Assembly: GCF_021608265.1 (NCBI RefSeq)
Contig: NZ_JAKIHP010000002.1
Coordinates: 1-64,000, forward strand
Length of the DNA: 64,000 bases
Direction of reading: 5' to 3'
Source: Flavobacterium wongokense
Lineage (GTDB): Bacteria; Bacteroidota; Bacteroidia; Flavobacteriales; Flavobacteriaceae
Shown: one piece after another, positions 1,655 through 30,770 of the stretch
How positions within the stretch are numbered: position 1 is the first letter of the stretch
Layout of the letters: the number at the start of each line of letters is the position of its first letter
The notes under the pieces: generated by a model
Seen by the model: only the letters and a program-made list of their open reading frames with translations
What the model was told of the DNA's origin: nothing
The model's database searches: none
Program-made: the position numbers and the translations under genes

Positions 1655-2028
1655 CTATCCTAAAGTAAATTCAGGATTATAGATTAATCCAATGACATTG
1701 TCCCAAGGATCTTTGAGTGTGGCAAAACAATTTCGCCACCAACATTCTGCGGGTTTTCGAAAGCGGTAGCGCCTAAACTCAAAAAGAAATCAAAGGTTTC
1801 CTGAACATTATCCACACCCCAATAACTTACCACAGCATCTGAACGGTTTAACGGAGTTTCTCCTTCGGGGTGCAACCCCAATTCGTAACCACCAATATTG
1901 AAACCAACATAAAACGGCTGGTCAAAATAAGGCTGGGTTTGAAATGCCTTTGCGTACCATTCCTTTGCTTTTGGAATGTCGTTGACTTTGTAGATTGTGG
2001 TTCGAAGACCATGAATTTGATTTTTCAT
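1655..2028 (-). CDS. VOC (glyoxalase/bleomycin-resistance) family protein, frameshifted near its C-terminus
   Basis: The frame begins MKNQIHGLRTTIYKVNDIPK and continues with FYVGFNIGGYELGLHP and VSYWGVDNVQETF, one VOC domain made of two beta-alpha-beta-beta-beta units that normally bind a metal and a small ligand. Read straight, it stops at 1684 after HSKILGTMSLD. Shifting frame by one base at the A run near 1723-1728 instead gives ATLKDPWDNVIGLIYNPEF with a stop at 1655-1657, the family's usual ending. The span of 374 bases is one short of a whole number of codons, so a base is missing, either a sequencing error or a real mutation. It is the last gene of the catabolic operon; a role as isomerase or lyase there is only a guess. 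Confidence 0.8.
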
Positions 2029-2031
2029 AGC

Positions 2032-2781
2032 TTAATATTTACCATTCAATAATTCTCCTCCAATAGCTGACTTAGCTTCAATGCCGAGCTTTTTCATCAT
2101 TTCGTAAGTGGTGCAGACTGCGGCCGAAGTTACCGGAATTCCGGTTTCTGCCTGAATCAAATCGACGGCTTCCAGTGACGGCATCTGTACGCAGGCTGAG
2201 ACTACCAGGACGTCAATATCAGTTAGGTCTAAACGCTTATAAATTTCCAAGAGGTTCATAGGGTTTTGAGCGGCAACTTCAAGGTTGTCCGGAATTTCGA
2301 GCGCAATGCTTTCCTTGACTTTTATTCCCTGATGTTCTATATAATCGACAACCATGTCGGTTAACGGGCGCATATAAGGTGTTATAATCGAAATTTGTTT
2401 GGCACCTAAAACCTTCAAACCATTTATCAATGCTCCGGCTGAAGTGACAATTGGTGTTGGAAAATCATTGGCAACGGTTTCCTGGTGCAGGTTTACTTCC
2501 GACACGCAATGATACCCTCGTCCCATACTCATAATCGCAACCAGGCACGCATAACCCATCACATCAACATGTGCATCCGATAACTCCTGTGCGCATTTGA
2601 GGCTCATCGCATCCATGGCTTCGAGTTCTTCCTTGGTTACTTTTTTCATCCTCATTCGGCTGCTGTGAAACGTAAAACGTTCGGGCAGGATTGTTTCCCT
2701 GGAGCGGAAAATTGCAGGAATTTCGGTTTCCATGGTTACGTTTGATGATGGCACGATTTGGCCTATTCTGTATTTCTTCAT
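2032..2781 (-). CDS. Maleate cis-trans isomerase (Asp/Glu racemase superfamily)
   Basis: This enzyme converts maleate to fumarate for the TCA cycle. The N-terminal PSSNVTMETEIP (11-22) is the family signature, and the two catalytic cysteines are at about residue 79 (GYACLV) and residue 197 (VSACVQMPSLE). At 249 residues it has the usual length and no signal peptide, so it is cytoplasmic. Its start overlaps the stop of the upstream methyltransferase gene by 4 bases, which suggests translational coupling. Next to an FAH-type hydrolase and a gentisate-type dioxygenase it implies that the pathway releases free maleate rather than using a glutathione-dependent maleylpyruvate isomerase. Arylmalonate decarboxylase relatives are the main alternative. 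Confidence 0.85.
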   Translation of the reverse strand: MKKYRIGQIVPSSNVTMETEIPAIFRSRETILPERFTFHSSRMRMKKVTKEELEAMDAMSLKCAQELSDAHVDVMGYACLVAIMSMGRGYHCVSEVNLHQETVANDFPTPIVTSAGALINGLKVLGAKQISIITPYMRPLTDMVVDYIEHQGIKVKESIALEIPDNLEVAAQNPMNLLEIYKRLDLTDIDVLVVSACVQMPSLEAVDLIQAETGIPVTSAAVCTTYEMMKKLGIEAKSAIGGELLNGKY

Positions 2782-3404
2782 TTTGTTGCAATTAGTATTA
2801 AGTCAGTTGTGTCTTGTTGGTTGTGAAGGTATTTTTTTCGCTGAATATCGATTATCTTAAAACCATTATTCTCAAGCGTCTCAGTAAGATAATCGGCCTG
2901 ATGGAAATTTTGATACATGGCATCACCGGTACTTCCTGTTTTAAATCCCGATTTGGAATTATCGTCTTCCATCGTACTTAGGTATAGAACACCATTTGGA
3001 TTCAGGATATGCTTTGAATCTTCAATAAATTGGATGGCTTCCTTTTTCGAAAGATAGGGTAGTCCAAATCCACACATCACAGCATCAAAAGTGGTGTCCA
3101 GATTTTCAATATCCCTAAAATCAAGTAATTGAAAATCGGCAGTTGGGTTGTTTATTTTTCCTAATTCAATCATATTCGGAGCCAAATCGGTTGCCAGGAT
3201 TTTAAAATCGGGACGCTTTTCCAAAAGGTATTTGGTGATATTCCCCGGTCCACATGCCAATTCTAAAATGCTTGGATTTTCCTTTTTGATGCTTTGGCAA
3301 AATGTATCAAATGAATCGTGGTACAACGATACATCCATAAACCTCTCCTGATATGCATGGGCAAGTTTGTTGAAAACGTTAACTGCGATTTTGGTCTGAT
3401 CCAT
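2778..3404 (-). CDS. Class I SAM-dependent methyltransferase
   Basis: The 208-residue protein has the SAM-binding motif I LELACGPGN (about 47-55), an acidic motif II ending ATDLAPNMI, and the motif IV-like FDAVMCGFGLPYL. It resembles small-molecule methyltransferases of the UbiE/COQ5 type and is cytoplasmic. It sits between the FAH hydrolase gene (2 bases away) and maleate isomerase (4-base overlap), so it is expressed with the pathway, but no methyl transfer is needed in gentisate-type catabolism. It could act on a side product, cofactor or signal. The substrate cannot be told from sequence. Confidence 0.8.
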   Translation of the reverse strand: MDQTKIAVNVFNKLAHAYQERFMDVSLYHDSFDTFCQSIKKENPSILELACGPGNITKYLLEKRPDFKILATDLAPNMIELGKINNPTADFQLLDFRDIENLDTTFDAVMCGFGLPYLSKKEAIQFIEDSKHILNPNGVLYLSTMEDDNSKSGFKTGSTGDAMYQNFHQADYLTETLENNGFKIIDIQRKKYLHNQQDTTDLILIATK

Positions 3405-3406
3405 TT

Positions 3407-4318
3407 TTATTTTAAATCCCTTACTGTATTTGTTATGGTTCCAATTCCTTCCACGGTTGCTTCGATTACGTCGCCATCATACAGCCATTCCTGAGGGTCA
3501 CGGCCGGCACCAACACCCGAAGGAGTTCCGGTTGCGATGATGTCGCCGGCTTCCAAAGTGAAAACCGTACTCAAATCCTCAATCAAATCGTTGATGTTGA
3601 ACAATAGGAATTTTGTATTTGCATTTTGCTTTTCAACGCCGTTTACCTTTAAGGATAAATTCAGGTTGTGTGGATTTTCAATTTCGTCTTTAGTAACCAA
3701 AATAGGTCCCATTGGTGCAAAAGTATCCTGTCCTTTGGAAACAATCCATTGCCCTTCACGACGACAGTCACGTGCCGAAACATCATTAATCACGGTGTAT
3801 CCAAAAACATAATCCATAGCATCGGCTTTGGAAACGTATTTCCCTTTTTTGCCAATCACCACAGCCAATTCGACTTCCCAATCCAACTGCGAAGTTAGTT
3901 TGGTGTTTTTAATGATATCGGTATTAGTTGCTGTAACCGTTGTTGGTGGTTTTGAAAAAATGATGGGCTTTTGCGGTAGTTTTCCGGTTGTATCTAAAGT
4001 ACGAGCGCTTTCGGCAACGTGTTCTGTATAATTCAGGCCAATACCGATAATGTTTTTCCTTGGTTTTGGAATAGGGGCACAGAAGGTAACTTCGCTTATT
4101 TCATAAGCGATTTCCTTTAAAAATGCTGGCTCTGTATCGGCAACCATATCATTAAGCTCTTCTACCAATTCATAACCCATGTCAATTAGTTCCAACATCG
4201 AAGAAGGCAATGGGAAGTTTGATATTTCCCCAAAATCCTCCATATCGATTACCTGGTTATTGTGGATGAATCCTAAGCGTGGTTCTGAATTTTCAGTAGT
4301 GTAAGTAAGTAATTTCAT
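3407..4318 (-). CDS. FAH-family hydrolase, probable maleyl- or fumarylpyruvate hydrolase
   Basis: These enzymes cut the C-C bond of a beta-diketo acid after ring opening, here releasing pyruvate plus a C4 acid. The 303-residue protein has the FAH core: GIGLNYTEH (92-100), metal-binding acids in DWEVELAVVIGK (about 146-157), INDVSARD (177-184) and the late TGTPSGVGAGRDP loop. The N-terminal domain of about 80 residues is of the type found in fumarylpyruvate hydrolases. It follows the dioxygenase gene after 26 bases. With maleate isomerase in the operon the likely product is maleate, or maleamate if the substrate carries nitrogen. Substrate choice is inference. Confidence 0.85.
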   Translation of the reverse strand: MKLLTYTTENSEPRLGFIHNNQVIDMEDFGEISNFPLPSSMLELIDMGYELVEELNDMVADTEPAFLKEIAYEISEVTFCAPIPKPRKNIIGIGLNYTEHVAESARTLDTTGKLPQKPIIFSKPPTTVTATNTDIIKNTKLTSQLDWEVELAVVIGKKGKYVSKADAMDYVFGYTVINDVSARDCRREGQWIVSKGQDTFAPMGPILVTKDEIENPHNLNLSLKVNGVEKQNANTKFLLFNINDLIEDLSTVFTLEAGDIIATGTPSGVGAGRDPQEWLYDGDVIEATVEGIGTITNTVRDLK

Positions 4319-4344
4319 TTTTTATATATGTCAGATTCTGTTTT

Positions 4345-5448
4345 CTAAAGTTGGTGGCCGTTGTTCTCAGTATATTCCCTTCCCTGGAACAATCCAAGGC
4401 TTTCGATTACCGGTAAATCATTAAAGCTGAACAAACAGGCATCTTCGGTATCTGAAGCATTGTGATGTTCGTGCCAAGCCCAGGAAGGAACACAGAAAAT
4501 ATCACGTTCTTTCCAATCAAAGCGTTGCCCGTTGATGATGGAGTAACCACTTCCTTTGGCACATTGATATACAAATGAACCTGTATGTTTGTGCGCTTTT
4601 CCTTTGAAGCCGCCAGGCAGTAACTGGATTGACGCTCCCATGGTCTGCATTACATGACCGCCTGTCATTGGGTTGGTGTACTTCATTAGGATTCCGTCAA
4701 AAGCATTTGGCTGGTTTACTTTGGCAGCTTCCAATAAAGCCGGATAGACTTTTTTCCAGGAATATTTGAATAAAGGTGAATAGGGTTTATCCCAAACCAC
4801 ATCTGCCGGAACCAATCCATTTCCGTCAAACGATAATGGCAAATGATTTACAGGTGAGATGTGCGCCTGTTTGCCATCATAAACGGCATAATCATTAGCT
4901 TCCAAAGCATTGACCAATGGAATATCCAAGCCATCCTGCCAAATACAGGTTTTACCGCCTTCTTCAACACCGTGCTCATGCCAGGTGGAATTGGGAGTAA
5001 TCACAAAGTCATTGACTTCAAGCATAATTTTATTCCCATCCACTACGGTATAACCTTTATCGCCTTCCATGATAAAACGAAGTGCCGAAGCTTTGTGACG
5101 GTGTGCCGAAGTGCTTTCGCCCGGACGTGTAACCTGGATTCCTGTGTACAACCATCCGACTGCCGCCGAAACGTCTTTTCGTTTGTCGTTTACCAGATAA
5201 ACCACTCTTCGTCCTGCCTGTTCGGGAGTCACCAATTCGGATGACTTCAGAACCAGACTTCGTAAATCTTCATATTTCCATAGCATCGGAACGGAATTGC
5301 TTCGTGGTTCCCAAGGTTCAATATCATTGGCAACGGTCCATAAGGCACCAGCTCCAAGGGTTTCGAGTTCTTTATAGTAAGCCAGTAATTCAGGTGAATC
5401 CTGAACACGTGCTCTACCAATCTGATCGTCTGAATGGTTCTCGTTCAT
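4345..5448 (-). CDS. Gentisate 1,2-dioxygenase-type ring-cleaving enzyme (bicupin)
   Basis: The family opens the ring of gentisate between the carboxyl-bearing carbon and its ortho neighbour. The 367-residue protein has two cupin domains. The first holds iron ligands His116, His118 (SAHRHKAS) and His157 (STWHEHG); the second keeps KAHKHTGS and AWHEHHN. ALWTVANDIEPWEPRSN near the start is also typical of gentisate dioxygenases. It follows the nitrilase gene after one base. An amino-bearing substrate such as 5-hydroxyanthranilate would give an amide instead of a free acid, which would fit the neighbouring C-N hydrolase; sequence alone cannot separate gentisate, salicylate and amino analogues. 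Confidence 0.85.
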   Translation of the reverse strand: MNENHSDDQIGRARVQDSPELLAYYKELETLGAGALWTVANDIEPWEPRSNSVPMLWKYEDLRSLVLKSSELVTPEQAGRRVVYLVNDKRKDVSAAVGWLYTGIQVTRPGESTSAHRHKASALRFIMEGDKGYTVVDGNKIMLEVNDFVITPNSTWHEHGVEEGGKTCIWQDGLDIPLVNALEANDYAVYDGKQAHISPVNHLPLSFDGNGLVPADVVWDKPYSPLFKYSWKKVYPALLEAAKVNQPNAFDGILMKYTNPMTGGHVMQTMGASIQLLPGGFKGKAHKHTGSFVYQCAKGSGYSIINGQRFDWKERDIFCVPSWAWHEHHNASDTEDACLFSFNDLPVIESLGLFQGREYTENNGHQL

Positions 5449-5449
5449 C

Positions 5450-6430
5450 TTATTTTTTATTAAATTCTTCGTGATTGTCTATGAATGTAATTTTTCTTGT
5501 TGGAGCGGTATTTACCCGCAAATCAAAAATATCAAAGCGGTTGTAATGCCCAAGAATGTCATGCATCTGTTTGGGCTGGATGCATTTTTCCAAATCGATA
5601 TCAGCATAAACAATCCCTTCATCGTCAATTAAGGGTTCGCCAACTACAGCGCCATTTGGCCCAATGATTCCTGAGAAAGCCGAGTTTTTACGCGTTAGTA
5701 ATTCTTCAACATTAGGAACATCATCTTTCAAAGCTTCCATGATCTCTTTTGAAATTGTGGAGCAGGAAACGATTGTAAACAGCTTCCCTTCGAATGAATG
5801 CGCCGCTGCTCTAATCTTAATCGCTTCAGCCATATTGTAATCGGGTGGAGCTACCGGAAGTGAAATATAATTGGCAATATGGATTAATTCGCCCTGCGAC
5901 AGCAACGTAAAACGAGCCAAGGTGTTGGTGTTTTCGCCACAGGCCAAAGTTCCGATTGGTCCAATTTCGGTATCGTAAACTTTTAGGGATGAACCATCAC
6001 CTGAAGTCCACGTTAATTTTTCTGCCCAGGTTGGGACTAATTTTCGGTGTTTTCCAATAAGTTTTCCATTATTGTCAATGATGAGATTGGTATTGTAGAT
6101 TTCGCCATAACTATCACCGCGTTCGTTGATTCCGATAACAATATGGCAATTATGGTTTTTTGCTGCTTCGTATAATGGTTTCATTGCATCATCATCTACT
6201 TTCACCGAAGATTTATACAACTGCTCATACCATTTGCTTCCCTGAACCGGCGTCATAATCCAGTTCCAATAAGGATAACCGGCAACAAATACTTCGGGAA
6301 ACGCCACGAGATTGGCACCATTTGCAGTAGCTTCCTTTACAAAAGAAACCGCTTTTTCAATTGTTTTTTCAACATTGAGGAAAGCTGGTGATGTTTGTAC
6401 GGCTGCAGCCTTGAATTTTTTGAATTCCAC
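5450..6430 (-). CDS. Nitrilase-superfamily carbon-nitrogen hydrolase
   Basis: The Glu-Lys-Cys triad is visible as Glu46 (AFPEVFVAGYP), Lys130 (HRKLVPT) and Cys164 (TLACGENTN). The family hydrolyses nitriles or amides to acid plus ammonia. HRKLVPT and the long C-terminus resemble the true nitrilase branch, but the Cys is followed by Gly-Glu-Asn where Trp-Glu is more common. At 326 residues it has normal length, without a signal. It lies within 1 and 10 bases of its neighbours in an aromatic-acid operon. A tempting job is removal of ammonia from an amide formed by ring cleavage of an amino-aromatic acid; that is inference, and a nitrile substrate is equally open. Confidence 0.85.
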   Translation of the reverse strand: MEFKKFKAAAVQTSPAFLNVEKTIEKAVSFVKEATANGANLVAFPEVFVAGYPYWNWIMTPVQGSKWYEQLYKSSVKVDDDAMKPLYEAAKNHNCHIVIGINERGDSYGEIYNTNLIIDNNGKLIGKHRKLVPTWAEKLTWTSGDGSSLKVYDTEIGPIGTLACGENTNTLARFTLLSQGELIHIANYISLPVAPPDYNMAEAIKIRAAAHSFEGKLFTIVSCSTISKEIMEALKDDVPNVEELLTRKNSAFSGIIGPNGAVVGEPLIDDEGIVYADIDLEKCIQPKQMHDILGHYNRFDIFDLRVNTAPTRKITFIDNHEEFNKK

Positions 6431-6440
6431 TTTATTAGAG

Positions 6441-6872
6441 TTATGAGTTATGATTTATGAACTTAGATATTTTTTCTTTCATATAGTCGTTGAAAGGCTC
6501 GGCTTTGATGTTATTCCGGTCTTCGGCAATAGCGACATTTACTAAGGCCACTTCGCCTTCAAGGCAGGTTTTGCCGTTTTCATCCTCAAAGCGGAAACCG
6601 CAATTCACCGAAGCTCCGCCGAGGTTGATGACCCAGAGTTTTTTGGTTAAGGTTTCTCCCAAACGCGCTGCTTTTTTGAACTGTACTTTCAAATCTACTG
6701 TCGGAATTCCGTTGGTTTCATGGATTTTGGAAAAAGGGCGTTCTAAGGCTTCCTCAAACCAATCTTCGACCAAATCGTTGAGCATTTCGAGGAAACGCGG
6801 ATAGAAAACAATTCCCGCATAATCAACATGCTTGAAACGGATTTTTTCTGTTTTTACGAAAGGTTGGTTCAT
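6441..6872 (-). CDS. Hotdog-fold acyl-CoA thioesterase (4-hydroxybenzoyl-CoA thioesterase-like)
   Basis: The protein has 143 residues. FKHVDYAGIVFYPRFLEM (13-30) is the hotdog signature with the catalytic Asp17, as in 4-hydroxybenzoyl-CoA thioesterase. In this operon it would release the hydroxylated aromatic acid from CoA before ring cleavage, as in the Streptomyces salicylyl-CoA to gentisate route. The protein is cytoplasmic. Its ATG lies only 2 bases past the stop of an unrelated T9SS protein gene. Family is confident; the substrate is inferred from the adjacent ligase, hydroxylase and dioxygenase. Confidence 0.82.
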   Translation of the reverse strand: MNQPFVKTEKIRFKHVDYAGIVFYPRFLEMLNDLVEDWFEEALERPFSKIHETNGIPTVDLKVQFKKAARLGETLTKKLWVINLGGASVNCGFRFEDENGKTCLEGEVALVNVAIAEDRNNIKAEPFNDYMKEKISKFINHNS

Positions 6873-6874
6873 GA

Positions 6875-8422
6875 TTATTCTTTTATGAATTTTGATTGGT
6901 ATTTATTTGCTCCTGAAAATGCCTGTATAAAATACATGCCAATCGATAAGTTTCCAATATCGATCTGATTGATTCTTTCGGTTTGTGTGATAATAATTTT
7001 GCCTGTCAAATCTGTGATAATGCATTTATCCATAATAGCATTGTCGGGTGACTCAAATTTGATAATATCCTTACCCGGATTTGGATAGATTGCCAATTGA
7101 TAAGGGTTAAATTCATTCATTGATAAACTGTCTGCTGATAATTTTGCTACAAACGCATCAGCCCCGCCACCATGAAAACCAGGGAAAGTTGTACTTGTGA
7201 CAATATTACCGGATAGTATATAACCATTATCATTTGTCTGGTCCAAATAATGGGCATAAGTATAGGCATCGCTTCTGCCTACTGATTTTTGCCAAAGGAT
7301 ATTTCCGTTTTGAGCATTAAGCTTAACTACCCATATATCGCCCATCCCATTAAAATCGGCGACATCGCCGGTAGCTGATGAAACTGAAGTAGAAAAAACG
7401 TAATTGCCATCGTTCGCCTGCATAATATTTCCAAATTGAACAGATGCGCCATTATTGCCATAAGTCCTTGCCCATAATACCGTTCCTGCAGCGTCTAATT
7501 TTAGTATGCCGTTATATCCATTTCCATTGCTGGGAAAAGGAGCTGTGTGGTTTGCGCTGCCCAGAATTATATACTCACCGCTGGAAGTAGTATTTATTTT
7601 GTAGCCTTCGCTACCGCCCTGCATTATTCTTTGCCACTGAATCGTACCTGTACTACTAATTTTAACTACCCACATATTGGTGTAGGTATTTGATGCCTGA
7701 AGACCCAACAAGTCTCCATCTGTTGATTTAGAGCCTCCTGTAAAAACATAACCGCCATCGGCCGATAGGGTTATAGATCTTCCATAATCATAATTGGAAC
7801 CTCCATAGGTTTTTTGCCATTCTATGATTCCGGTGGCACTCAATTTTACAACCCAGGCGTCATTGTAGGTTCCATGTAACCCAGAAACATCAAAATTATT
7901 ACTTATTGTACTTCCAATTACAATATAACCGCCGTCTGGAGTCTGCTTAATGTCTCTGGCTACTTCATTTAAAGAACCGCCCAGGGCTTTCTGCCATTCA
8001 AGATTCCCTGTGCTTGAGATTTTTATGACCCAAAAATCTTCTCTGTAATCATTACTATGAACTCCGGTAACATCGCCATCGTTTGGATAAGTAGCATATC
8101 CTGCTATAATATATCCTCCGTCAGTGGTTTGGGCAATACTATATATTTCTTCATCGCCCGTTCCTCCAAAGGTCTTTTGCCACTGTATCGTTCCGTCTGC
8201 GGCTAGCTTTACTACCCAAAAATCTTCAATAGTTCCGTGTAACCCCGAGACTTGTCCATCATTGGAAAAAGTATAGGCTCCAACAATATAACCTCCGTCA
8301 GAAGTATGCTTTATACATCGTGCTTCATCCGCTTTTGACCCGCCAAAGTATTTTTGCCATTCTAATGTAGGTGCCTGTGCGAAGCAATTAATGGAAAATA
8401 ATAATAATAGAATTTTTTTCAT
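6875..8422 (-). CDS. Secreted T9SS type A protein with repeated DGGY propeller motifs
   Basis: The 515-residue product has a signal peptide (MKKILLLLFSINCFAQ) and about seven repeats of roughly 55 residues containing TIQWQKTFGG and DGGYIIAG, likely beta-propeller blades. It ends with a type A sorting domain: LAIYPNPGKDIIKF, then GKIIITQ and GMYFIQAF. It should be exported and anchored or released at the cell surface. Oddly it lies inside a cytoplasmic catabolic operon, 2 bases before the thioesterase and 9 bases after the glutamate-synthase-like gene. It may help bind the substrate outside, or may have been inserted without a functional link. Confidence 0.85.
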   Translation of the reverse strand: MKKILLLLFSINCFAQAPTLEWQKYFGGSKADEARCIKHTSDGGYIVGAYTFSNDGQVSGLHGTIEDFWVVKLAADGTIQWQKTFGGTGDEEIYSIAQTTDGGYIIAGYATYPNDGDVTGVHSNDYREDFWVIKISSTGNLEWQKALGGSLNEVARDIKQTPDGGYIVIGSTISNNFDVSGLHGTYNDAWVVKLSATGIIEWQKTYGGSNYDYGRSITLSADGGYVFTGGSKSTDGDLLGLQASNTYTNMWVVKISSTGTIQWQRIMQGGSEGYKINTTSSGEYIILGSANHTAPFPSNGNGYNGILKLDAAGTVLWARTYGNNGASVQFGNIMQANDGNYVFSTSVSSATGDVADFNGMGDIWVVKLNAQNGNILWQKSVGRSDAYTYAHYLDQTNDNGYILSGNIVTSTTFPGFHGGGADAFVAKLSADSLSMNEFNPYQLAIYPNPGKDIIKFESPDNAIMDKCIITDLTGKIIITQTERINQIDIGNLSIGMYFIQAFSGANKYQSKFIKE

Positions 8423-8431
8423 TGGATTAGA

Positions 8432-10012
8432 TTAGAATTTAGATGTGCTGGCTTTCTTCCAAAAGTACAAAAAATCCTTTGGAACGCTCTCTTCATTCAG
8501 CAAACTTCCTTTGACCAATTCGGGATAAATTTCGGAAAATGTCCTAACCTGAGTGCGGTCAATTCGTGTGCTCACGACATCGCGGGTAACATCATCTGGA
8601 TGTGCCAAACCGGCTGAAGCCATCAAATCCATGGCGCTTTTTACCGTTTCTTTCTGGAAACGTGCTACACGGATGCTTTTTTCTTCGGGAACGAGGCCTT
8701 TCATCAAATGGGGATCCTGTGTTGCCACTCCGGTTGGACAGGTATTCGCATGGCATTCCAACGCCTGGATGCAGCCTAAAGCAAACATCATTCCGCGTGC
8801 CGAATTGCATAAGTCGGCGCCAATTGATAGGTTTTTGATGATGTCAAAACCTGTGATGACCTTTCCGCTGCAGATGATTTTGATTTGGTCTTTGATTCCG
8901 AAACCGTTTAATGCATCATAAACAAACGCCAAAGCTTCACGCAAAGGCATTCCAACGTGGTCTGAATATTCCTGTGGTGCTGCTCCGGTTCCGCCTTCGC
9001 CACCGTCGACCGTTATAAAATCCAAATAGGTATTGGTTGCTATCATTGCTTTGCAGATGGACAGGAATTCCGATTTGTTTCCGATGCAGATTTTCATTCC
9101 AATAGGTTTTCCGCCTGAGCCTTTGCGCAGTAATTTTACAAAATCCATTAGTTCCAATGGTGTTGTGAATGCGGAATGGGTAGGAGGAGAGACCACGTCT
9201 TTCCCTTTTGAAACCAAACGTATTGCTGCGATTTCATCGGTTACTTTTTCTTTGGGTAGGATTCCGCCATGGCCTGGTTTAGCGCCTTGGGAAAATTTGA
9301 TTTCTATCATTTTTACGTTGGGCAAAATTGCTCTTTCCACAAAGGCGTCATAATTAAATGTCCCATCTTCATTGCGGCAGCTGAAATAACCGGTTCCAAT
9401 ATTCCAAACGACATCGCCACCCTGCAAATGATACGGAGACAATCCGCCTTCGCCGGTATTATGGTAGAATTTTCCCATTTTGGCTCCGTTGTTTAAAGCC
9501 AGTATGGCATTTTTGCTCAATGAACCAAAACTCATGGCGCTGATGTTGAACAAACTCGCCTCATAGGGTTTGTCGCATTGCGAAGAACCAATCCGTACGC
9601 GTGGATTATCATTTACATTTGAAAAGGAAATAGCCCTAATGCTGTGGTTTATCCATTCATAACCTTCGTCATACACATTGAGCTGCGTCCCGAATGGCAT
9701 GGTGTCGTTTTCCTTTTTGCTTCGTTGGTAGACCAGGCTTCGCTGTAAACGGTTGAATGGTTTGCCATCGGTATCCGTTTCGACAAAATACTGACGGATT
9801 TCAGGGCCTATGGATTCCAACAAATAACGCATCCTGCCCAAAAGCGGGAAGTTCCTGCGGATGCTTTTTTTGGATTGGAACATATCATACAATCCCATGG
9901 CAATTAGTGGAATTATAATCAATAATAAGAAACTGAATTTCAAATTGACATACATCAGCATGCCGATTATGGCGAGTGATGTTATTGCAAAAAGGACAAA
10001 TGCTTTTCTCAT
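8432..10012 (-). CDS. FMN-binding glutamate synthase family protein (membrane-anchored GltS-like domain)
   Basis: The 526-residue protein starts with two hydrophobic segments (about 4-24 and 26-44), then a glutamate-synthase central and FMN domain: ISAMSFGSLS, GEGGLSPYH, SQGAKPGHGG, TVDGGEGGTGAAP. A 3Fe-4S site with spacing C-x5-C-x4-C is seen in CIQALECHANTC. It lacks the glutaminase domain of full GOGAT, so it would need ammonia or another amino donor; the physiological reaction of this stand-alone family is not settled. The 4-base overlap with the CoA ligase gene binds it to the aromatic operon, where it might capture ammonia released from a nitrogen-containing substrate. That link is inference. 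Confidence 0.85.
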   Translation of the reverse strand: MRKAFVLFAITSLAIIGMLMYVNLKFSFLLLIIIPLIAMGLYDMFQSKKSIRRNFPLLGRMRYLLESIGPEIRQYFVETDTDGKPFNRLQRSLVYQRSKKENDTMPFGTQLNVYDEGYEWINHSIRAISFSNVNDNPRVRIGSSQCDKPYEASLFNISAMSFGSLSKNAILALNNGAKMGKFYHNTGEGGLSPYHLQGGDVVWNIGTGYFSCRNEDGTFNYDAFVERAILPNVKMIEIKFSQGAKPGHGGILPKEKVTDEIAAIRLVSKGKDVVSPPTHSAFTTPLELMDFVKLLRKGSGGKPIGMKICIGNKSEFLSICKAMIATNTYLDFITVDGGEGGTGAAPQEYSDHVGMPLREALAFVYDALNGFGIKDQIKIICSGKVITGFDIIKNLSIGADLCNSARGMMFALGCIQALECHANTCPTGVATQDPHLMKGLVPEEKSIRVARFQKETVKSAMDLMASAGLAHPDDVTRDVVSTRIDRTQVRTFSEIYPELVKGSLLNEESVPKDFLYFWKKASTSKF

Positions 10013-11595
10013 GATTTTAATTTGAATCGTTGTATTTTTCCCGTTTCCGTTTTGGGTAAAGCTTCGGTAAAATAAATAACCCTAGGGTATTTATATGGAG
10101 CTGCTACTTCCTTGAACCAGTGTTGTATATGGTTTTTCATGTTGTCTGTGGCTTTACCTTTTTCTTTCAGTACAATGTGCGCACAAACGAGCATTCCACG
10201 TTCCTCATCAGGTAAGCCGACTACCGCGCATTCCAATATATCTTCGTGTGTTAAAAGTACGCTTTCTACTTCAATCGCAGCGATATTGTAACCCGAAGAA
10301 ATGATCATATCGTCACCACGGGCGACAAACCAAAAATGACCCTCTTTATCCTGACGGAAAATATCACCGGTAATGTTCCAGCCGTTTTCAACATATTCTT
10401 TCTGCTTTTCAATGCGGTTTAAATATTTACAGCCGGTCACACCACGGACAGCCAATCTTCCCGGTTCGTTTGTTGGGACATCATTTCCGTTTTTGTCAAT
10501 GATTTTGGCTTCGTAACCTGTGACTGCAACTCCGGTTGCGCCAGGTTTCATGTTTTCAGTATTGGATGAAATGAAAATGTGGAGCATTTCTGTCGAACCA
10601 ATCCCGTCAATAATTTTCAAACCTGTGGCGTCGTACCAATCCTGCCAAACCTTTAACGGTAGGGTTTCTCCGGCTGAGACACATTTGCGTAAGCTGGAAA
10701 CATCAAACTCCTTTACTTTGGAGGTTATCACGCGCCAGGCTGTTGGTGCAGTAAAGCAAATCGTGATTTTATGCTCCTGGATTGCCTGTAAAAGCATATC
10801 CGGTGTTGGTTTTTCTATCAAAAAGGTGGAAGCGCCAAAATACATTGGAAACAAAACCAATCCGCCCAAACCAAAGGTAAAACCTAATGGCGGGCTTCCG
10901 GTAAAAATATCTTTTTGTGTTGGTTGTAATGAATAAGGGGGAAATGCTTCGCAAATGTTCAGGATGTCTTTGTGGTAATGCGAGGTCATTTTTGGCAAAC
11001 CGGTTGTTCCTGAGGTAAAGCCAATTAAAGCAATCGAATCTGATTTTGAATGATAATTGGTAAACGTTTTTGGCTTCGACTGCATTAAGGTTTCCAATTC
11101 ATCATAAAAAGAAATCCTTTTAATGAACTCCGATTTTACGAGATTCATTTCATCCTGCAATCCTTTTTCACATAAGGCATGAGAGATTTCGGCACAGTCA
11201 ATTATAGTGGTTAATTCCTTTGAGCGAAGTAAGGGCATTGTGGCTACTACAATTCCGCCGGCCTTTAAAATGGCAAACCAACAGGCAACCATCATCGGAT
11301 TATTAGCGGAACGAATCAATACGCGGTTTCCCGATTGCAATCCCAAATCATCAACCAAAACATGTGCAAGCTGATTGGCTTTTTCGTATAAATCATTGTA
11401 AGTCCATACTGTTTCAAAAGTCCGGATGCAGGGATTACTGCCTCGTCCTTCCTTAATGTGATTATCAAGCAAAGCATCGACACAATTCAGCATTTCAGGA
11501 TGGGTGAACTGAGGCAAATCCAGAAAAACATAATCGGGCTGTAAGTCAGATGCGGGTAAATGTTCGTGCGCGAAATTGTCGGTGTAATGTTTCAT
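10009..11595 (-). CDS. Aryl-CoA ligase, 2-aminobenzoate-CoA ligase-like (AMP-binding)
   Basis: This ANL-family enzyme makes an aryl-CoA through an aryl-AMP. The 528-residue protein has the P-loop IGFTSGTTGLPKM (191-203), the GIGSTEM motif, VARGDDMIISSGYNI and the C-terminal lysine in LPKTETGKIQRF. From memory, FDLPQF-like and NCVDALLDNHI segments near the start and VLIRSANNPMMVACW resemble 2-aminobenzoate-CoA ligases more than acetyl-CoA synthetases. It would activate anthranilate or salicylate in the cytoplasm as the first pathway step. Both ends overlap neighbouring genes by 4 bases (glutamate synthase-like and hydroxylase). Confidence 0.85.
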   Translation of the reverse strand: MKHYTDNFAHEHLPASDLQPDYVFLDLPQFTHPEMLNCVDALLDNHIKEGRGSNPCIRTFETVWTYNDLYEKANQLAHVLVDDLGLQSGNRVLIRSANNPMMVACWFAILKAGGIVVATMPLLRSKELTTIIDCAEISHALCEKGLQDEMNLVKSEFIKRISFYDELETLMQSKPKTFTNYHSKSDSIALIGFTSGTTGLPKMTSHYHKDILNICEAFPPYSLQPTQKDIFTGSPPLGFTFGLGGLVLFPMYFGASTFLIEKPTPDMLLQAIQEHKITICFTAPTAWRVITSKVKEFDVSSLRKCVSAGETLPLKVWQDWYDATGLKIIDGIGSTEMLHIFISSNTENMKPGATGVAVTGYEAKIIDKNGNDVPTNEPGRLAVRGVTGCKYLNRIEKQKEYVENGWNITGDIFRQDKEGHFWFVARGDDMIISSGYNIAAIEVESVLLTHEDILECAVVGLPDEERGMLVCAHIVLKEKGKATDNMKNHIQHWFKEVAAPYKYPRVIYFTEALPKTETGKIQRFKLKS

Positions 11596-13895
11596 GATTT
11601 CTTATTACTCTTCGGTTTCAATGCTTTTTTCATGCCTTCGGTTTGTTTTCTTTCGGATGCCTTTAGCGGATATAAATGGGAGATTCCCATTTTGTATTGA
11701 TTAGGGATGTCATTGGTTTCAAACTGCTCATAAGCCTGCGCGTTGCGGACAAAATTCGCGTCGAGCAATAATGGCCTGCCCAATGCCACTAAATCGGCTC
11801 TTCCGTTTAGGATTATGGTATTGATTTGATCAATGTCCTGGATGTAGCCTGTCGTAATGGTTGGGATATGGACTGTATTGCGTACCAAATCAGAAAAAGG
11901 CGTCTGCCACATCCTTCCTGTTTGAGGCTTTTGTCCAGCGACGGTATTTCCTGTGGAAACGTTTATAATGTCGGCACCAGCATTTTTAAAAGCAGCTGCA
12001 ATCGATAGGACATCATCTTCAGAAATTCCGTTTTCTGCCCAATCTGATGCTGAAATACGGACTGAAATTGGTTTCTCTTTTGGGAAAGCATTTCTCATTT
12101 CATTAAAAACGCGCAATGGAAATTTCAATCTGTTTTCGATTCTTCCGCCAAATTCGTCTGTTCGGATATTGGTTAAGGGCGATAAAAAGGAAGCCAGTAA
12201 AAATCCATGATGCGCTTGTAATTCAATCATATCGAAACCAGCATCATGGGCATTTTTTGCAGCCTGGACAAACTGGTTTGTGATCAAATCCATATCGGCT
12301 AAATCCATTTCTTTTGGAACCGCAAAAATTTCATTAAACGCTATTGGCGAAGCTGAAATCAATTCCCATGGGTTTTGCATCGCTTCGGTTTCCCAAGGTC
12401 TTTTTGCTGCTCCTTTTCTTCCGGAATGTCCCAATTGGATTCCGATTTTTGTTTGTGTATTTTTATGGATAAAATCCGTTATAGATTTCCATTTAAGTAT
12501 TTGTTCCTGAGTGTAAATGCCTGTGCAACCTAAAGTGATTCGGCCTGTTTCGGAAACGGCAGTCATCTCGGCTATAATTAGCCCAACACCACCAGTTGCA
12601 CGGCTTCCGTAATGTACCAAATGCCAGTCGTTGACCACTCCGTTTTCGGCGGAATATTGCCCCATTGCAGACATAACTATTCGGTTTGATAAAGTCATAT
12701 TGCGTAAGCTAAATTGTGTAAATGCCGCCGAAGTTGAATTTTGAATTTTAAATTTTGAATTTTGAATTTCCAAAAACTCGTTCAGGACTTTATCCGTAAA
12801 CGATTTATCACGTAGGCGCAGGTTTTCATAAGTTACTTTTTTGGCTCTAGTCATGCAACCGAAAGCAAACTGATAAAAGGAATGTTGGTTGTTCCGGTCC
12901 ATGTTTTCAAACCAATCTAATGAAACCAAAGCAGCATGCTGAATCATTTCAACCGTATTCCGGCGTGTTTTGTCATATTGCTCAAAAGCTGCGGGAACAT
13001 TTGTTGGATTTGCAATTACTGCATCTGACAAACCAATGGCTGAATCCATTGCCAGTTTTGTTCCCGAACCAATGGAGAAATGCGCTGTGGCTTTGGCATC
13101 GCCTAATAGAACAATATTGTTGTGATACCATTTTTCGTTGGTTATATGCGGGAATTGGCGCCAATGCGATTTGTTTGAAATCAGTCCGTGGCCATCCAAT
13201 TCTTCCTTGAATATTCCGGAAATTTTGGCAATGGTATCTTCTTCGTTAGTGACTTCAAATCCGTGTTTCTGCCAGGTTTCGTCGCTGCATTCAAAAATCC
13301 AGGTACTCATTCCCGGTTGGTATTGATAGGTGTGGGCCACAATCAATCCGTGAGGAGTAGTTCGAAAAAAATAGGTAAAAGCGTCTAACGGTTTTGTAGA
13401 ACCCAGCCAGACGAAGCGGTTTTTCTTTAGTGAAATTTTGGTTCCAAAATCGGATGCATATTGATTTCTTATGGTGCTTGCAATTCCGTCACAGGCCACG
13501 ATGATGTCTGAATCCTTAAACTGACTGACATCTTCAATGTTTTGTTCAAAATGAAGATTGACACCTTCTTCCGTGCATCGTTGCTGGAGTAGCTGCAATA
13601 ATTTTTTTCGGGAACAGCCACAGAATCCGTTTCCTGCGATGCTTACAGTTTGTCCGTCACGCGCAATGATGATGTCGTCCCAATAGGCAAAATTGCTTCG
13701 GATTAGTTCGTACGATTTTAAATCACGCGAAAGGAATTCGCCCAAAGTTTCATCCGAAAACACAACGCCAAATCCGAAACTATCATCGGCCTTGTTGCGT
13801 TCGTAGACATCAATCTGGCAATTGGGCATTGCTTTTTTGGTGAGTATTGAAAAGTATAATCCGCCAGGGCCACCGCCAATTACTGATATTCGCAT
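11592..13895 (-). CDS. Bifunctional aryl-CoA 5-hydroxylase/oxidoreductase (FAD monooxygenase fused to OYE-like reductase)
   Basis: The 767-residue protein joins two enzymes. Residues 1 to about 370 form an FAD aromatic hydroxylase: GGGPGG (7-12), the DG-type motif ACDGIAS and GDAKATAHFSIGSG. Residues about 390-740 form an old-yellow-enzyme barrel: NRIVMSAMGQYS, HYGSRATGGVGLIIAE, QLGHSGRKG and LQAHHGFLLASFLSP. The layout matches 2-aminobenzoyl-CoA monooxygenase/reductase and proteins named salicylyl-CoA 5-hydroxylase/oxidoreductase. It would hydroxylate the CoA ester para to the amino or hydroxy group. The linker (about 375-388) is encoded by a simple AT repeat. It overlaps the ligase gene by 4 bases. 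The role of the reductase half is uncertain, as the ring must stay aromatic for the dioxygenase. Confidence 0.85.
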   Translation of the reverse strand: MRISVIGGGPGGLYFSILTKKAMPNCQIDVYERNKADDSFGFGVVFSDETLGEFLSRDLKSYELIRSNFAYWDDIIIARDGQTVSIAGNGFCGCSRKKLLQLLQQRCTEEGVNLHFEQNIEDVSQFKDSDIIVACDGIASTIRNQYASDFGTKISLKKNRFVWLGSTKPLDAFTYFFRTTPHGLIVAHTYQYQPGMSTWIFECSDETWQKHGFEVTNEEDTIAKISGIFKEELDGHGLISNKSHWRQFPHITNEKWYHNNIVLLGDAKATAHFSIGSGTKLAMDSAIGLSDAVIANPTNVPAAFEQYDKTRRNTVEMIQHAALVSLDWFENMDRNNQHSFYQFAFGCMTRAKKVTYENLRLRDKSFTDKVLNEFLEIQNSKFKIQNSTSAAFTQFSLRNMTLSNRIVMSAMGQYSAENGVVNDWHLVHYGSRATGGVGLIIAEMTAVSETGRITLGCTGIYTQEQILKWKSITDFIHKNTQTKIGIQLGHSGRKGAAKRPWETEAMQNPWELISASPIAFNEIFAVPKEMDLADMDLITNQFVQAAKNAHDAGFDMIELQAHHGFLLASFLSPLTNIRTDEFGGRIENRLKFPLRVFNEMRNAFPKEKPISVRISASDWAENGISEDDVLSIAAAFKNAGADIINVSTGNTVAGQKPQTGRMWQTPFSDLVRNTVHIPTITTGYIQDIDQINTIILNGRADLVALGRPLLLDANFVRNAQAYEQFETNDIPNQYKMGISHLYPLKASERKQTEGMKKALKPKSNKKS
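12734..12772. repeat. In-gene AT-rich repeat at the hydroxylase-reductase junction
   Basis: TTGAATTTTGAATTT and close variants repeat about four times. Translated on the minus strand they give the linker EIQNSKFKIQNST between the two domains. Nothing similar occurs elsewhere in the gene. Confidence 0.75.
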
Positions 13896-13897
13896 AA

Positions 13898-14350
13898 TTA
13901 TTTTTTCATAAAATCAAAGGAACCTTTTCTGAGGTTGATTCCAAATTCGATATAGGCTTTAAGGCACGACAGGAAATTGGACCAGCCAAAGGAATTACCG
14001 GACAGCCATTTGAGTCCGGCTTCATTGTTCTCCATGCTTTTTTCAGAGATTTTTACCAAGGTAAAATTATCGCCAACGGTAGAAAGTCTTATTTCAACCA
14101 AGAGGTCTTTTCCGCTGTTTTCCCAATAGAAGGAAATTAGGCTTTGTTCGGCCTTGACCACTTTTACCGGAACTTCCATGTCAAATTCGGGGAATTTCCA
14201 GACAAGGTTTTTGCCTTCTTCCATTCTGCCGGTACTTTGTGAGATGAAATAATTGCACATTTTTTCCGGGTTGGCAATGGCTTCAAAAACTTCGTTGATT
14301 GGTTTTGAAATCTGCATTGCAACATTTATTTCTAATACATCCGTTTTCAT
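13898..14350 (-). CDS. SRPBCC (AHSA1-type) domain protein
   Basis: The 150-residue protein has the START-like ligand-binding pattern: MQISKPINEVFEAIANPEKM near the start, a central VWKFPEFDMEVPVKV strand region, and a C-terminal helix with SGNSFGWSNFLSCLKAYIEF typical of AHSA1/polyketide-cyclase relatives. Such proteins bind small hydrophobic molecules or act as chaperone-like cofactors. It is cytoplasmic. The gene sits between the flavin reductase (1 base) and hydroxylase (2 bases) genes, so it is coexpressed with the upper pathway and could bind the aromatic substrate. No enzymatic residues are evident, and the function is unknown. Confidence 0.75.
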   Translation of the reverse strand: MKTDVLEINVAMQISKPINEVFEAIANPEKMCNYFISQSTGRMEEGKNLVWKFPEFDMEVPVKVVKAEQSLISFYWENSGKDLLVEIRLSTVGDNFTLVKISEKSMENNEAGLKWLSGNSFGWSNFLSCLKAYIEFGINLRKGSFDFMKK

Positions 14351-14351
14351 A

Positions 14352-14957
14352 TTAGTTTCTTTTTACAGAGAAAAGCTCTCCAATTTTTGCATAATGCGAT
14401 CCTGCCAATCGGGAAACTGGCCTGTAATTTTCGAGATTGATTTTGTAATTGTCCAATAAAACATTTTCATCAAAATGCATCATTACAATACGGCCAATCA
14501 CTACGCAAGCGCCACCATGTTTGTGTCCTTCCAGGAAATAGTGATGTACCAGTTCGCATTCGAGTGTGATTGGACTTTCCTTTACACGCATGGGTTTTAC
14601 TTTCTGCGACGCGATGGGAGTGACTCCGGCCAATTCAAATTCGTCTATATCGGAATGAACTGCCTGCGCAGTCATATTCATTTGTTCGACCAACTCTTCG
14701 GTAACCATATTCACTACAAATTGTTTGGTAGCCAGTACATTGTTGAGCGTATCCTTGTTGGAATCGTTTCCTCTTCCTGTTGAAAACATTACGTGTGGCG
14801 GATCATCGCCAACAGCATTGAAATAGGAGAAAGGGGCAAGATTGTTAATTCCGTTTTCACTGACACTTGAAATCCAGCCAATGGGCCTTGGGATGATTGT
14901 GCCTGTTAAGAGTTTGTAAACGGCAGTATGTTCTAATTCGTTTGGGTCAAATTGCAT
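14352..14957 (-). CDS. Flavin reductase-like FMN-binding protein
   Basis: The 201-residue protein belongs to the DIM6/NTAB split-barrel family: KLLTGTIIPRPIGWISS, NLAPFSYFNAVGDDPP and TLNNVLATKQFVVN form the FMN-binding fold. Members either reduce flavin for a partner oxygenase or act as flavoredoxins. It is the first gene of the 13-gene catabolic operon. The FAD hydroxylase downstream is of the kind that reduces its own flavin, so this protein may instead serve another redox step. The leader carries dispersed repeat C, and no clear -7/-33 promoter was found in the 100 bases upstream. Confidence 0.82.
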   Translation of the reverse strand: MQFDPNELEHTAVYKLLTGTIIPRPIGWISSVSENGINNLAPFSYFNAVGDDPPHVMFSTGRGNDSNKDTLNNVLATKQFVVNMVTEELVEQMNMTAQAVHSDIDEFELAGVTPIASQKVKPMRVKESPITLECELVHHYFLEGHKHGGACVVIGRIVMMHFDENVLLDNYKINLENYRPVSRLAGSHYAKIGELFSVKRN

Positions 14958-15057: not shown

Positions 15058-15492
15058 TTAGCCCAGATAAAGAAATTCCTTGTCCGTTGGATTAAAGTTT
15101 TCCCAGTCAATCGATAATACATAATTGATGGCTTTTCTGAGTGCACCCACAGATGCTGGTTTGCGAATATAAAGATTGGCTCCCATTTTTTTACACAATT
15201 CAATATCTGCCGGATTGCTTGAGGTTGTAAAAATCACTACAGGAACATTTTCAATGTTGGCTGATGCTTTGATTTCACGCAGGACATCAAAACCCGACTT
15301 GACGGGCATGTTCAGGTCAAGGAAAATAACAGAGGCGCGTGGTGGCGGATTGTGAAGGGATTTTAGTAGTTTATCTCCTTCTTCAAACAGGCAAACGGGT
15401 TTGTCTATTTCCAATAGTGCTTCCTTAAAAAAATCCAGGTCATCTACATCGTCATCGGCATAAAAAATCGAAGTTAGTTGCTGTTCTTCCAT
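15058..15492 (-). CDS. Single-domain response regulator
   Basis: The 144-residue protein is a CheY-like receiver only. The acidic pocket is YADDDVDD (about 11-18), the phosphoacceptor is Asp59 in VIFLDLNMP, Thr90 lies in IFTTSS and the conserved Lys111 is in YIRKPA. No output domain is attached, so it would act through protein contacts or phosphotransfer. The gene follows the large PAS kinase gene on the same strand after about 107 bases, so the pair is probably cognate. The catabolic operon starts 100 bases further on; a regulatory link to it is possible but not shown, as this protein cannot bind DNA by itself. Confidence 0.9.
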   Translation of the reverse strand: MEEQQLTSIFYADDDVDDLDFFKEALLEIDKPVCLFEEGDKLLKSLHNPPPRASVIFLDLNMPVKSGFDVLREIKASANIENVPVVIFTTSSNPADIELCKKMGANLYIRKPASVGALRKAINYVLSIDWENFNPTDKEFLYLG

Positions 15493-15599
15493 TATGCAAA
15501 ATTCGCAGTTAATTGTGGTTATAAGTGGTGAAGATACGCATTAAATAGCCATTAATCGCATTTCGTAAGGTTTAATTTTTGGTTTTCTTTAACAGTTGC

Positions 15600-29960: not shown

Positions 29961-30770
29961 ATGAGCAAAGTAGTATTAATAACAGGCGGTTCTTCGGGTA
30001 TTGGAAAAGCGATTGGAGAATATTTATTCCACAAAGGTTTTACCGTTTATGGAACCAGCCGAAACCCGGAGAAGGTTGCCAATTCGATATTCCCTTTAAT
30101 CGCTTTGGATGTGCGAAGTGTTGAGAGCATTCAGCAAGCGGTTGAAAAAGTAATTTCGATTTCTAAGCGGATTGATGTTGTGATTAATAATGCCGGAGTT
30201 GGAATTACCGGACCAATTGAGGAAACCCCAACTGATGAGATGCGGAATAATTTTGAGACTAATTTTTTCGGTCCAATTGAAGTCATCAAGGCGGCTTTGC
30301 CACAAATGCGCGAACAAAAATCGGGTTTAATAATTAACATTACTTCGATAGCAGGGTATATGGGTCTGCCGTATCGTGGAATTTATTCGGCCTCAAAAGG
30401 CGCATTGGAATTGGTTACCGAAGCAATAAGCATTGAGGTAAAACCATTCGGAATCAACGTTGTCAATATCGCACCGGGAGAATTTGCCACTGAAATTGCT
30501 TCGCGTCGTTACCATGCGCCCATTAATGAAGACTCGGTTTATAAAACGGCTTATGAAAATACGTTGGGAATGATGAATTCGCACATGCATAGTGGCGACA
30601 ATCCAGATGATTTGGCTGCAGTGGTTTTTCAGATCATTAATAACAAGAATCCAAAACTACATTATAAGGAAGGTGCATTCATGCAGAAATTCTCGATTGT
30701 TTTAAAACGGATTCTGCCCGACAGGATTTACGAAAGCATGCTGATGAATCATTATAAGCTCGAAAAGTAG
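29961..30770 (+). CDS. Short-chain dehydrogenase/reductase
   Basis: The 269-residue protein has the Rossmann motif TGGSSGIGKAIG (8-19), NNAGVGITG (about 76-84), the catalytic Ser in NITSIAGYMG and YSASKGALEL with the catalytic Tyr and Lys. Length is typical of classical SDRs; NADP(H) is likely because of the TSRNPEK segment after strand two. It is cytoplasmic. It follows the dipeptide epimerase gene after 26 bases on the same strand, but no shared pathway is obvious. The substrate, a ketone or alcohol, cannot be told. A pair of inverted 22-bp repeats follows the stop. Confidence 0.88.
   Translation: MSKVVLITGGSSGIGKAIGEYLFHKGFTVYGTSRNPEKVANSIFPLIALDVRSVESIQQAVEKVISISKRIDVVINNAGVGITGPIEETPTDEMRNNFETNFFGPIEVIKAALPQMREQKSGLIINITSIAGYMGLPYRGIYSASKGALELVTEAISIEVKPFGINVVNIAPGEFATEIASRRYHAPINEDSVYKTAYENTLGMMNSHMHSGDNPDDLAAVVFQIINNKNPKLHYKEGAFMQKFSIVLKRILPDRIYESMLMNHYKLEK

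Follow-up and report, generated by a model that had tools for sequence, protein, structure and literature searches.

The 64,000-nucleotide stretch analysed here (the window), from contig NZ_JAKIHP010000002.1 of Flavobacterium wongokense (genome G000, 3.3 Mb, 99.94% complete), carries on its minus strand a 13-gene set that is a real, conserved catabolic operon. The operon probably serves the catabolism of anthranilate by an amide route in which the ring is opened before the nitrogen is removed, an assignment built on gene content, co-occurrence and conserved residues, with the substrates deduced from sequence. The ligase would convert anthranilate into anthraniloyl-coenzyme A (CoA), C5 of which would be hydroxylated by the flavin adenine dinucleotide (FAD) half of a 767-residue enzyme; the ene-reductase half of that enzyme is presumed to be blunted by a His-to-Gln change, so that the ring would stay aromatic. 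A thioesterase would then free 5-hydroxyanthranilate from CoA, and a bicupin dioxygenase would cleave it between C1 and C2, the carbon that bears the amino group becoming a carboxamide (maleamoylpyruvate). An FAH hydrolase and a nitrilase-branch hydrolase, possibly in either order, would release pyruvate, ammonia and maleate, the last of which an isomerase would convert to fumarate.

The initial annotation had proposed such a route, and it stands as the best reading of the operon in view of the co-occurrence of its genes, the presence of the lower-pathway genes behind anthranilate-forming modules in other bacteria, the separate clade formed by its dioxygenase, the Gln560 change in the hydroxylase, and the absence of maiA and Rieske oxygenase matches. 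Neither maiA nor a Rieske oxygenase alpha subunit was matched in the genome at E 0.001, in searches that were positive in 3/14 and 4/14 control genomes, respectively. The names given earlier to the main enzymes were likewise borne out by NCBIfam and Pfam searches.

Conservation within Flavobacterium

Conservation was followed by tblastn in 80 Flavobacterium loci from named records, the best 80 of at least 539 confirmed relatives of the nitrilase-branch gene. Gene order and strand are conserved for eight core genes in 80/80 loci, so the operon is not a chance arrangement, and all eight are present in 64; in the remaining 16 the edge of the contig or locus was reached before the missing genes, except in F. 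piscinae (L058), where the stretch continues for 10 kb without them. Of 150 Flavobacterium genomes, 66 have the nitrilase gene, 68 the hydroxylase gene, 64 the dioxygenase gene and 63 the full set of three, and the six genomes in which the three sets disagree are only 62-85% complete. In the 124 near-complete genomes (completeness 90% or more, contamination 5% or less), the three genes occur in 53 each, always together. Because of this genome-wide co-occurrence, the nitrilase and ring-cleavage genes appear to act as one unit, patchily distributed across the genus. Searches of 395 genomes of the phylum at E 1e-60 gave nine nitrilase matches, six of them from Flavobacterium; the other three were considered as orthologues in other Bacteroidota and rejected, being CWEN-type nitrilases of 41% identity.

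Unrelated genes, read by eye as encoding protease-like secreted proteins, alpha/beta hydrolases, REP-transposase-like proteins and lipoproteins, often interrupt the core in L011-L090, and the operon seems tolerant of insertions. These interspersed genes were considered as shared pathway parts and set aside, since reading them by eye suggested no common function. Nitrilase matches with one or two internal stop codons were met in the whole-genome searches of G221, G662, G664, G743, G766 and G768. One record titled as a Bifidobacterium breve metagenome-assembled genome (L075) holds all eight core genes, with a nitrilase 86-87% identical, and is probably mislabelled.

Hydroxylase, dioxygenase and nitrilase-branch enzyme

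The hydroxylase joins an FAD monooxygenase half to an OYE (ene-reductase) half, and scores 976.2 bits against NF006101 (bifunctional salicylyl-CoA 5-hydroxylase/oxidoreductase), below the cut-off of 1078. In OYE proteins it is the HxxH His that binds the carbonyl group of the enone being reduced. The first His of the motif is found in 3hf3, the solved OYE closest to the window enzyme (ELHMAHG); the window enzyme reads QAHH at 560-563, with Gln560 in place of this His. Every readable enzyme of this type (77) has Gln560: 72 Flavobacterium rows, the window and four proteobacterial proteins (L093, L094, L095, L110), all of them encoded beside a dioxygenase of the window's clade (in L058 and L084 the dioxygenase falls outside the fetched stretch). 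Thirteen non-Flavobacterium hydroxylases were compared, from a search that matched 95 plasmid records, and the nine others among them (L133-L141) all carry His at the first HxxH position. Seven of 647 ungapped columns separate the Gln and His groups; the two that are fixed, Gln/His560 and Ala/Cys446, lie in the reductase half. A 21-row tree needs three changes of the Gln/His label, all forced by starred branches. With His as the ancestral state, which the OYE family suggests, these amount to three gains of Gln; the alternative is one gain and two losses. Gln560 is thus predicted to blunt the ring reductase, so that aromatic 5-hydroxyanthraniloyl-CoA is released to the thioesterase. What the change supports is an aromatic product, not an amino group over a hydroxyl at C2.

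The aerobic 2-aminobenzoyl-CoA pathway of Azoarcus evansii and Arthrobacter Rue61a (ACMR), which hydroxylates anthraniloyl-CoA and reduces its ring, shares with the window operon an anthranilate-CoA ligase and a two-domain hydroxylase/reductase, the window proteins being 46% and 44.5% identical, respectively, to those of Rue61a. The Rue61a ligase gene lies beside the hydroxylase gene on pAL1 and is presumably ARUE_113p00220, the product of which has anthranilate-CoA ligase activity (PMC3534580). In contrast to the window operon, however, beta-oxidation genes for a short-chain dehydrogenase/reductase (SDR), an enoyl-CoA hydratase and an acyl-CoA dehydrogenase accompany the hydroxylase in six of the nine His-type loci (L134, L135, L136, L138, L139, L141), with an SDR gene in L137 and none of the three in the actinobacterial L133 and L140, and HxxH is found in 9/9. 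The window operon has neither feature, holding instead the dioxygenase, nitrilase and maleate isomerase: none of the three beta-oxidation enzymes is encoded among its 13 proteins, and the only match was a 28% SDR match 15 kb away at 29976. This comparison uses Rue61a and the nine His-type loci, the Azoarcus sequence being left out. The His-type strain Rue61a does not grow on gentisate or on 5-hydroxyanthranilate, which it converts only cometabolically (PMC3534580), and a CoA ester seen in it is possibly cyclohexanedione-carboxyl-CoA according to its authors (PMC3534580); both reports were counted in favour of blunting. Caballeronia sp. SBC1 holds both types, a Gln-type hydroxylase in its dioxygenase cluster (L093) and a His-type one in a beta-oxidation cluster (L138). 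In L139 an interrupted clade dioxygenase lies 19 kb from a His-type hydroxylase, outside the beta-oxidation cluster.

The dioxygenase falls below the cut-offs of two named families, with 301.8 bits against TIGR02272 (gentisate 1,2-dioxygenase; cut-off 442.1) and 257.5 bits against NF049978 (5-aminosalicylate 1,2-dioxygenase MabB; cut-off 650). Excerpts of two papers on SDO and GDO enzymes assign the binding of iron, carboxylate and 5-hydroxyl to His119, His121, His160, Arg127, His162, Gln108, Asp174, Trp/Tyr104 and Arg83 (PMC11264262, PMC10306065). The window enzyme keeps all of these residues, and the three-His iron site, Arg127, His162, Asp174 and Gln108 (SDO numbering) are kept in 98/98 clade rows, the exceptions elsewhere being Phe at position 104 in six rows and Pro in the presumed Arg83 column in one; the expected substrate is therefore a 5-hydroxylated benzoate, not anthranilate or salicylate itself. 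The second shell sets the clade apart, with WHEH (Glu158) and WQD (Gln171) in 98/98 rows as opposed to WHDH/WLD in five and WHGH/WMD in one of six non-clade rows (two of these six being near-identical Streptomyces proteins), and the second cupin has His at all three metal positions in 97/98 clade rows compared with 1/6 of the others. Solved structures divide in the same way: 2d40, which we take to be the E. coli enzyme, has WHDH/WLD and 3bu7 has WHEH/WQD. In a tree the 22 clade rows form one branch with support 100/99, with long branches around it.

The same residues bear on the possibility that the nitrogen leaves before the ring is opened, with 5-hydroxyanthranilate converted to gentisate by the nitrilase-branch enzyme or by spontaneous hydrolysis and then cleaved by an ordinary gentisate dioxygenase. 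Such a course has been proposed for Nocardia opaca, with 5-hydroxyanthranilate and gentisate as intermediates (Cain 1968, as cited in an excerpt of PMC4539516), and would square the gentisate label of 3bu7 with an anthranilate substrate. It is nevertheless very unlikely here: the dioxygenase belongs to a separate clade in which the second-shell changes E158 and Q171 are fixed. C-N hydrolases act on amides, nitriles and ureas, and to our knowledge aryl amines are not among their known substrates.

For the amide route, the nitrilase-branch enzyme is proposed, from genomic context, to hydrolyse maleamate or maleamoylpyruvate. Its catalytic triad Glu46-Lys130-Cys164, with the motif CGENTN, is kept in 97/97 clade rows, and it scores 233.3 bits against TIGR04048 (Nit6803-type nitrilase), below the cut-off of 502.6. 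The isomerase aligns with the solved maleate cis-trans isomerase 4fq7 across all 249 residues, and its catalytic pair, Cys79 and Cys197, is kept in 80/80 rows. In this it resembles the isomerase of the maleamate branch of nicotinate and nicotine breakdown. The difference lies in the amide step, which in the window would fall to a nitrilase-branch enzyme, whereas the maleamate amidase of the nicotinate route has an isochorismatase-type fold; no Pfam match to such an amidase was found among the 13 operon proteins.

The lower module outside Flavobacterium and the weighing of the amide route

Seventeen plasmid records hold a dioxygenase of at least 54% identity (the next reaching 42%), and regions were compared in 15 of them, H77 being the same as L139 and two, H63 and H64 (N. 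humi), being left out. A quartet of nitrilase, dioxygenase, FAH and maleate isomerase genes occurs in 8/15 of these non-Flavobacterium records: Ruegeria (L092), Caballeronia (L093), Embleya (L099), Shinella (L101 and L102, on two replicons), Sagittula (L103), Sulfitobacter (L104) and Leisingera (L105). A ninth, L139, has a whole nitrilase, with the dioxygenase and isomerase matching in pieces. Leisingera thetidis carries an identical nitrilase accession on two plasmids (L139 and L105), and the neighbouring clade dioxygenase in L139 is unannotated and in three pieces.

The quartet follows different upper modules, several of them leading to an amino-bearing ring. In Embleya the upper module comprises an amidohydrolase, a tryptophan 2,3-dioxygenase (TDO; 370.3 bits, just below the cut-off of 390.7) and a kynureninase (249.7 bits, above the cut-off of 246.4). 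In Ruegeria, Caballeronia, Shinella (L102), Sagittula and Sulfitobacter (L104), genes for an iorAB-type 2-oxoacid oxidoreductase and an annotated thioesterase lie beside the quartet, joined by a 5-hydroxylase gene in L093 and a Cyclase-family gene in L093 and L102. The upper module of L101 has an HsaA-like flavin monooxygenase, and none was recognised in the fetched stretch of L105. An excerpt of PMC9613470 assigns iorA and iorB to the iad loci, which convert indole-3-acetate to anthranilate; the iorAB-type genes beside the quartet are a likeness to this system, whereas the iad routes, as far as excerpts of the iad papers describe them, stop at anthranilate. We infer that iorAB may form anthraniloyl-CoA from isatinate, and quartet loci that lack a hydroxylase gene might use 5-hydroxyindoles as starting material or keep the hydroxylase elsewhere.

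These five iad-type neighbourhoods, together with the fact that the closest solved relatives of the nitrilase-branch enzyme are nitrilases, could place that enzyme upstream, feeding a nitrile such as indole-3-acetonitrile into an indole-acetate route to anthranilate. We regard this as the least probable of the alternatives, because the nitrilase gene ends close to the dioxygenase match (median 61 bases in 78 Flavobacterium loci, and within 200 bases in 64) and accompanies TDO and kynureninase genes in Embleya, where a nitrile step would be needless.

A salicylate operon is another alternative, in which salicylyl-CoA would pass through gentisyl-CoA, gentisate and maleylpyruvate to pyruvate and maleate, and on to fumarate, the nitrilase-branch enzyme having an unrelated job. 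The salicylyl-CoA/gentisate pathway shares the ligase, 5-hydroxylase, thioesterase, gentisate-type bicupin and FAH enzyme with the window; NCBI names the hydroxylase family after it, gentisate 1,2-dioxygenase is the nearest named dioxygenase, all core enzymes except the nitrilase could serve it, and His-to-Gln suits any route needing an aromatic product. It is all the same unlikely, since the nitrilase is kept as tightly as the other core genes and remains part of the lower module next to an anthranilate-forming upper module (Embleya) or an iad-type one, and since the clade dioxygenases split from the gentisate ones examined. Four canonical gentisate loci (L106-L109, flanks up to 7 kb), from Pseudomonas XWY-1 (dioxygenase, FAH, maiA), two Streptomyces and Alicyclobacillus, differ from the window in having no nitrilase or maleate isomerase match; L108 holds maiA, and the annotated loci of S. 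atratus and Alicyclobacillus hold FAD monooxygenase, dioxygenase and FAH genes.

Several points weigh against the amide route, one of them the label of 3bu7, a Ruegeria protein 60% identical to the window dioxygenase and its closest solved chain, which is filed as a gentisate 1,2-dioxygenase; this label is the main evidence against strict specificity for 5-hydroxyanthranilate, and a 2008 paper on 3bu7 reportedly describes two iron centres and activity on gentisate. Among solved structures, the nitrilase-branch enzyme is nearest to nitrilases and cyanide hydratases, with amidases far behind, and the maleate isomerase would fit a gentisate route as well. His-type Rue61a also gave a presumed hydroxyanthraniloyl-CoA (PMC3534580), so Gln is not a prerequisite for an aromatic product. 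Six of the 15 non-Flavobacterium records lack the orthologous nitrilase and isomerase in the stretch compared: two of Novosphingobium (L094, L110), Aminobacter (L097) and Tistrella (L098) have another nitrilase-branch protein, 30-34% identical and with the motif CWENYMP, and no isomerase, the relative adjoining the dioxygenase in L094 and L110 (33-34%), while Cupriavidus (L095, with insertion sequence elements nearby) and Sulfitobacter alexandrii (L096) show no nitrilase or isomerase in the stretch. Kynureninase and TDO, both present in the window genome, each occur in 25/26 genomes of the genus (6/6 carriers and 19/20 without the dioxygenase), and because 19/20 non-carriers have each, they show only that anthranilate can be made.

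Kynureninase/TDO was accordingly rejected as a discriminating partner within Flavobacterium, being equally common in non-carriers. A search for a NicF-type amidase in the clusters without the orthologous nitrilase gave, in L094, a YcaC-like isochorismatase that lies some 5 kb away from the dioxygenase and was not counted.

The "gentisate 1,2-dioxygenase" label of 3bu7 may be wrong. The printed alignment of 3bu7 matches the Ruegeria L092 protein, and its gene (L092:10039-11163) lies on the megaplasmid of Ruegeria pomeroyi DSS-3 in the cluster of nitrilase, FAH, isomerase and iorAB genes; no hydroxylase was found near it in the L092 stretch. A distant relative, 5-nitrosalicylate dioxygenase, did not use 5-hydroxyanthranilate according to an excerpt of PMC10306065. 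There is roughly an even chance that three lineages independently blunted the reductase half of the hydroxylase, with His as the ancestral state, and paired it with an amide-forming bicupin dioxygenase and a nitrilase-branch maleamate hydrolase, nitrogen being removed last, in which case 3bu7 would be a 5-hydroxyanthranilate dioxygenase.

Operon layout, accessory genes and significance

The layout first described for the operon held in its 13 minus-strand genes and three 4-base overlaps (2778-2781, 10009-10012 and 11592-11595), with two amendments from the open reading frame (ORF) list of the window: spacings run from -4 to 26 bases, not to 30, and the operon ends at 1684, not 1655 (Table 1). 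The methyltransferase, the protein with a type IX secretion system (T9SS) tail, the AHSA1/SRPBCC protein and the flavin reductase-like protein, which the initial annotation had not named, were recognised with NCBIfam and Pfam; the Pfam search of the last ORF gave no match.

Table 1. Genes of the operon in transcription order, with the number of the 80 Flavobacterium loci that hold each
Gene product	Positions	Strand	Basis	Loci
Flavin reductase-like protein, core, first gene	14352..14957	-	PF01613, 89 bits	70/80
AHSA1/SRPBCC-like protein, accessory	13898..14350	-	PF08327	19/80
Predicted anthraniloyl-CoA/salicylyl-CoA 5-hydroxylase with C-terminal OYE domain	11592..13895	-	NF006101, 976 bits	73/80
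Aryl-CoA ligase, anthranilate-type	10009..11595	-	AMP-ligase family; 46% to Rue61a ligase	74/80
Glutamate synthase-like flavin mononucleotide (FMN) protein, accessory	8432..10012	-	PF01645, 285 bits	44/80
T9SS-tailed repeat protein, probably an insert	6875..8422	-	PF18962 tail	6/80
4HBT thioesterase	6441..6872	-	PF13279/PF03061	79/80
C-N hydrolase, nitrilase branch	5450..6430	-	PF00795	80/80 (query gene)
Bicupin dioxygenase, proposed 5-hydroxyanthranilate (amino-gentisate) 1,2-dioxygenase	4345..5448	-	TIGR02272, 302 bits	78/80
FAH-family acylpyruvase	3407..4318	-	PF01557, 235 bits	73/80
Class I methyltransferase, accessory	2778..3404	-	PF13649	14/80
Maleate cis-trans isomerase, Asp/Glu racemase-like	2032..2781	-	322 bits to 4fq7	72/80
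Glyoxalase/VOC-like ORF, accessory, last gene	1684..2028	-	named by eye	4/80

Judged from the 80 loci, the accessory genes are those for the glutamate synthase-like, SRPBCC, T9SS, methyltransferase and VOC proteins; in one of its 14 loci (L069, 45%) the methyltransferase gene lies outside the operon. The glutamate synthase-like protein had been suggested to capture the released ammonia, a pathway step rejected in view of its spread among the loci, where its gene lies upstream of the thioesterase gene in 43 of the 44 that have it, and by its presence in non-carriers: a homologue (50-62% identical) occurs in 18/20 genomes of the genus without the dioxygenase, and in the carrier G048 none was found at E 1e-60. 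The flavin reductase-like gene is core, though the hydroxylase should need no separate reductase, and homologues (31-36%) lie near clade dioxygenases in the loci of Novosphingobium (L094, L110), Sulfitobacter alexandrii (L096), Aminobacter (L097) and Tistrella (L098). Immediately upstream on the same strand, at 15058-19640, are genes for a response regulator and, by eye, a 1346-residue multi-PAS histidine kinase, the regulator being found in only 4/80 loci. A transfer-messenger RNA gene (tag GENNYALAA) lies just downstream of the operon at 652-1047.

No proposal for ring cleavage of 5-hydroxyanthranilate to an amide was found in the open-licence literature, and one may be in print beyond that scope. 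Anthranilate, maleamate and maleate isomerase occur together in PMC10005059 and PMC10293998, which in the excerpts available concern pyridine or nicotinate breakdown, and a pathway-annotation resource states, again in an excerpt, that tryptophan breakdown through anthraniloyl-CoA was omitted for lack of knowledge (PMC9007349). The enzyme families themselves are known; the new element is a hypothesis at the level of residues, in which the His-to-Gln change keeps the ring aromatic. This one-residue hypothesis addresses what steers a bifunctional enzyme towards ring reduction or towards ring cleavage, and if the amide route is true, the solved enzyme structure 3bu7 would be re-labelled. Anthranilate holds a central place in the breakdown of tryptophan, indole and auxin, and the operon offers a testable lower pathway for it in 53/124 near-complete Flavobacterium genomes.

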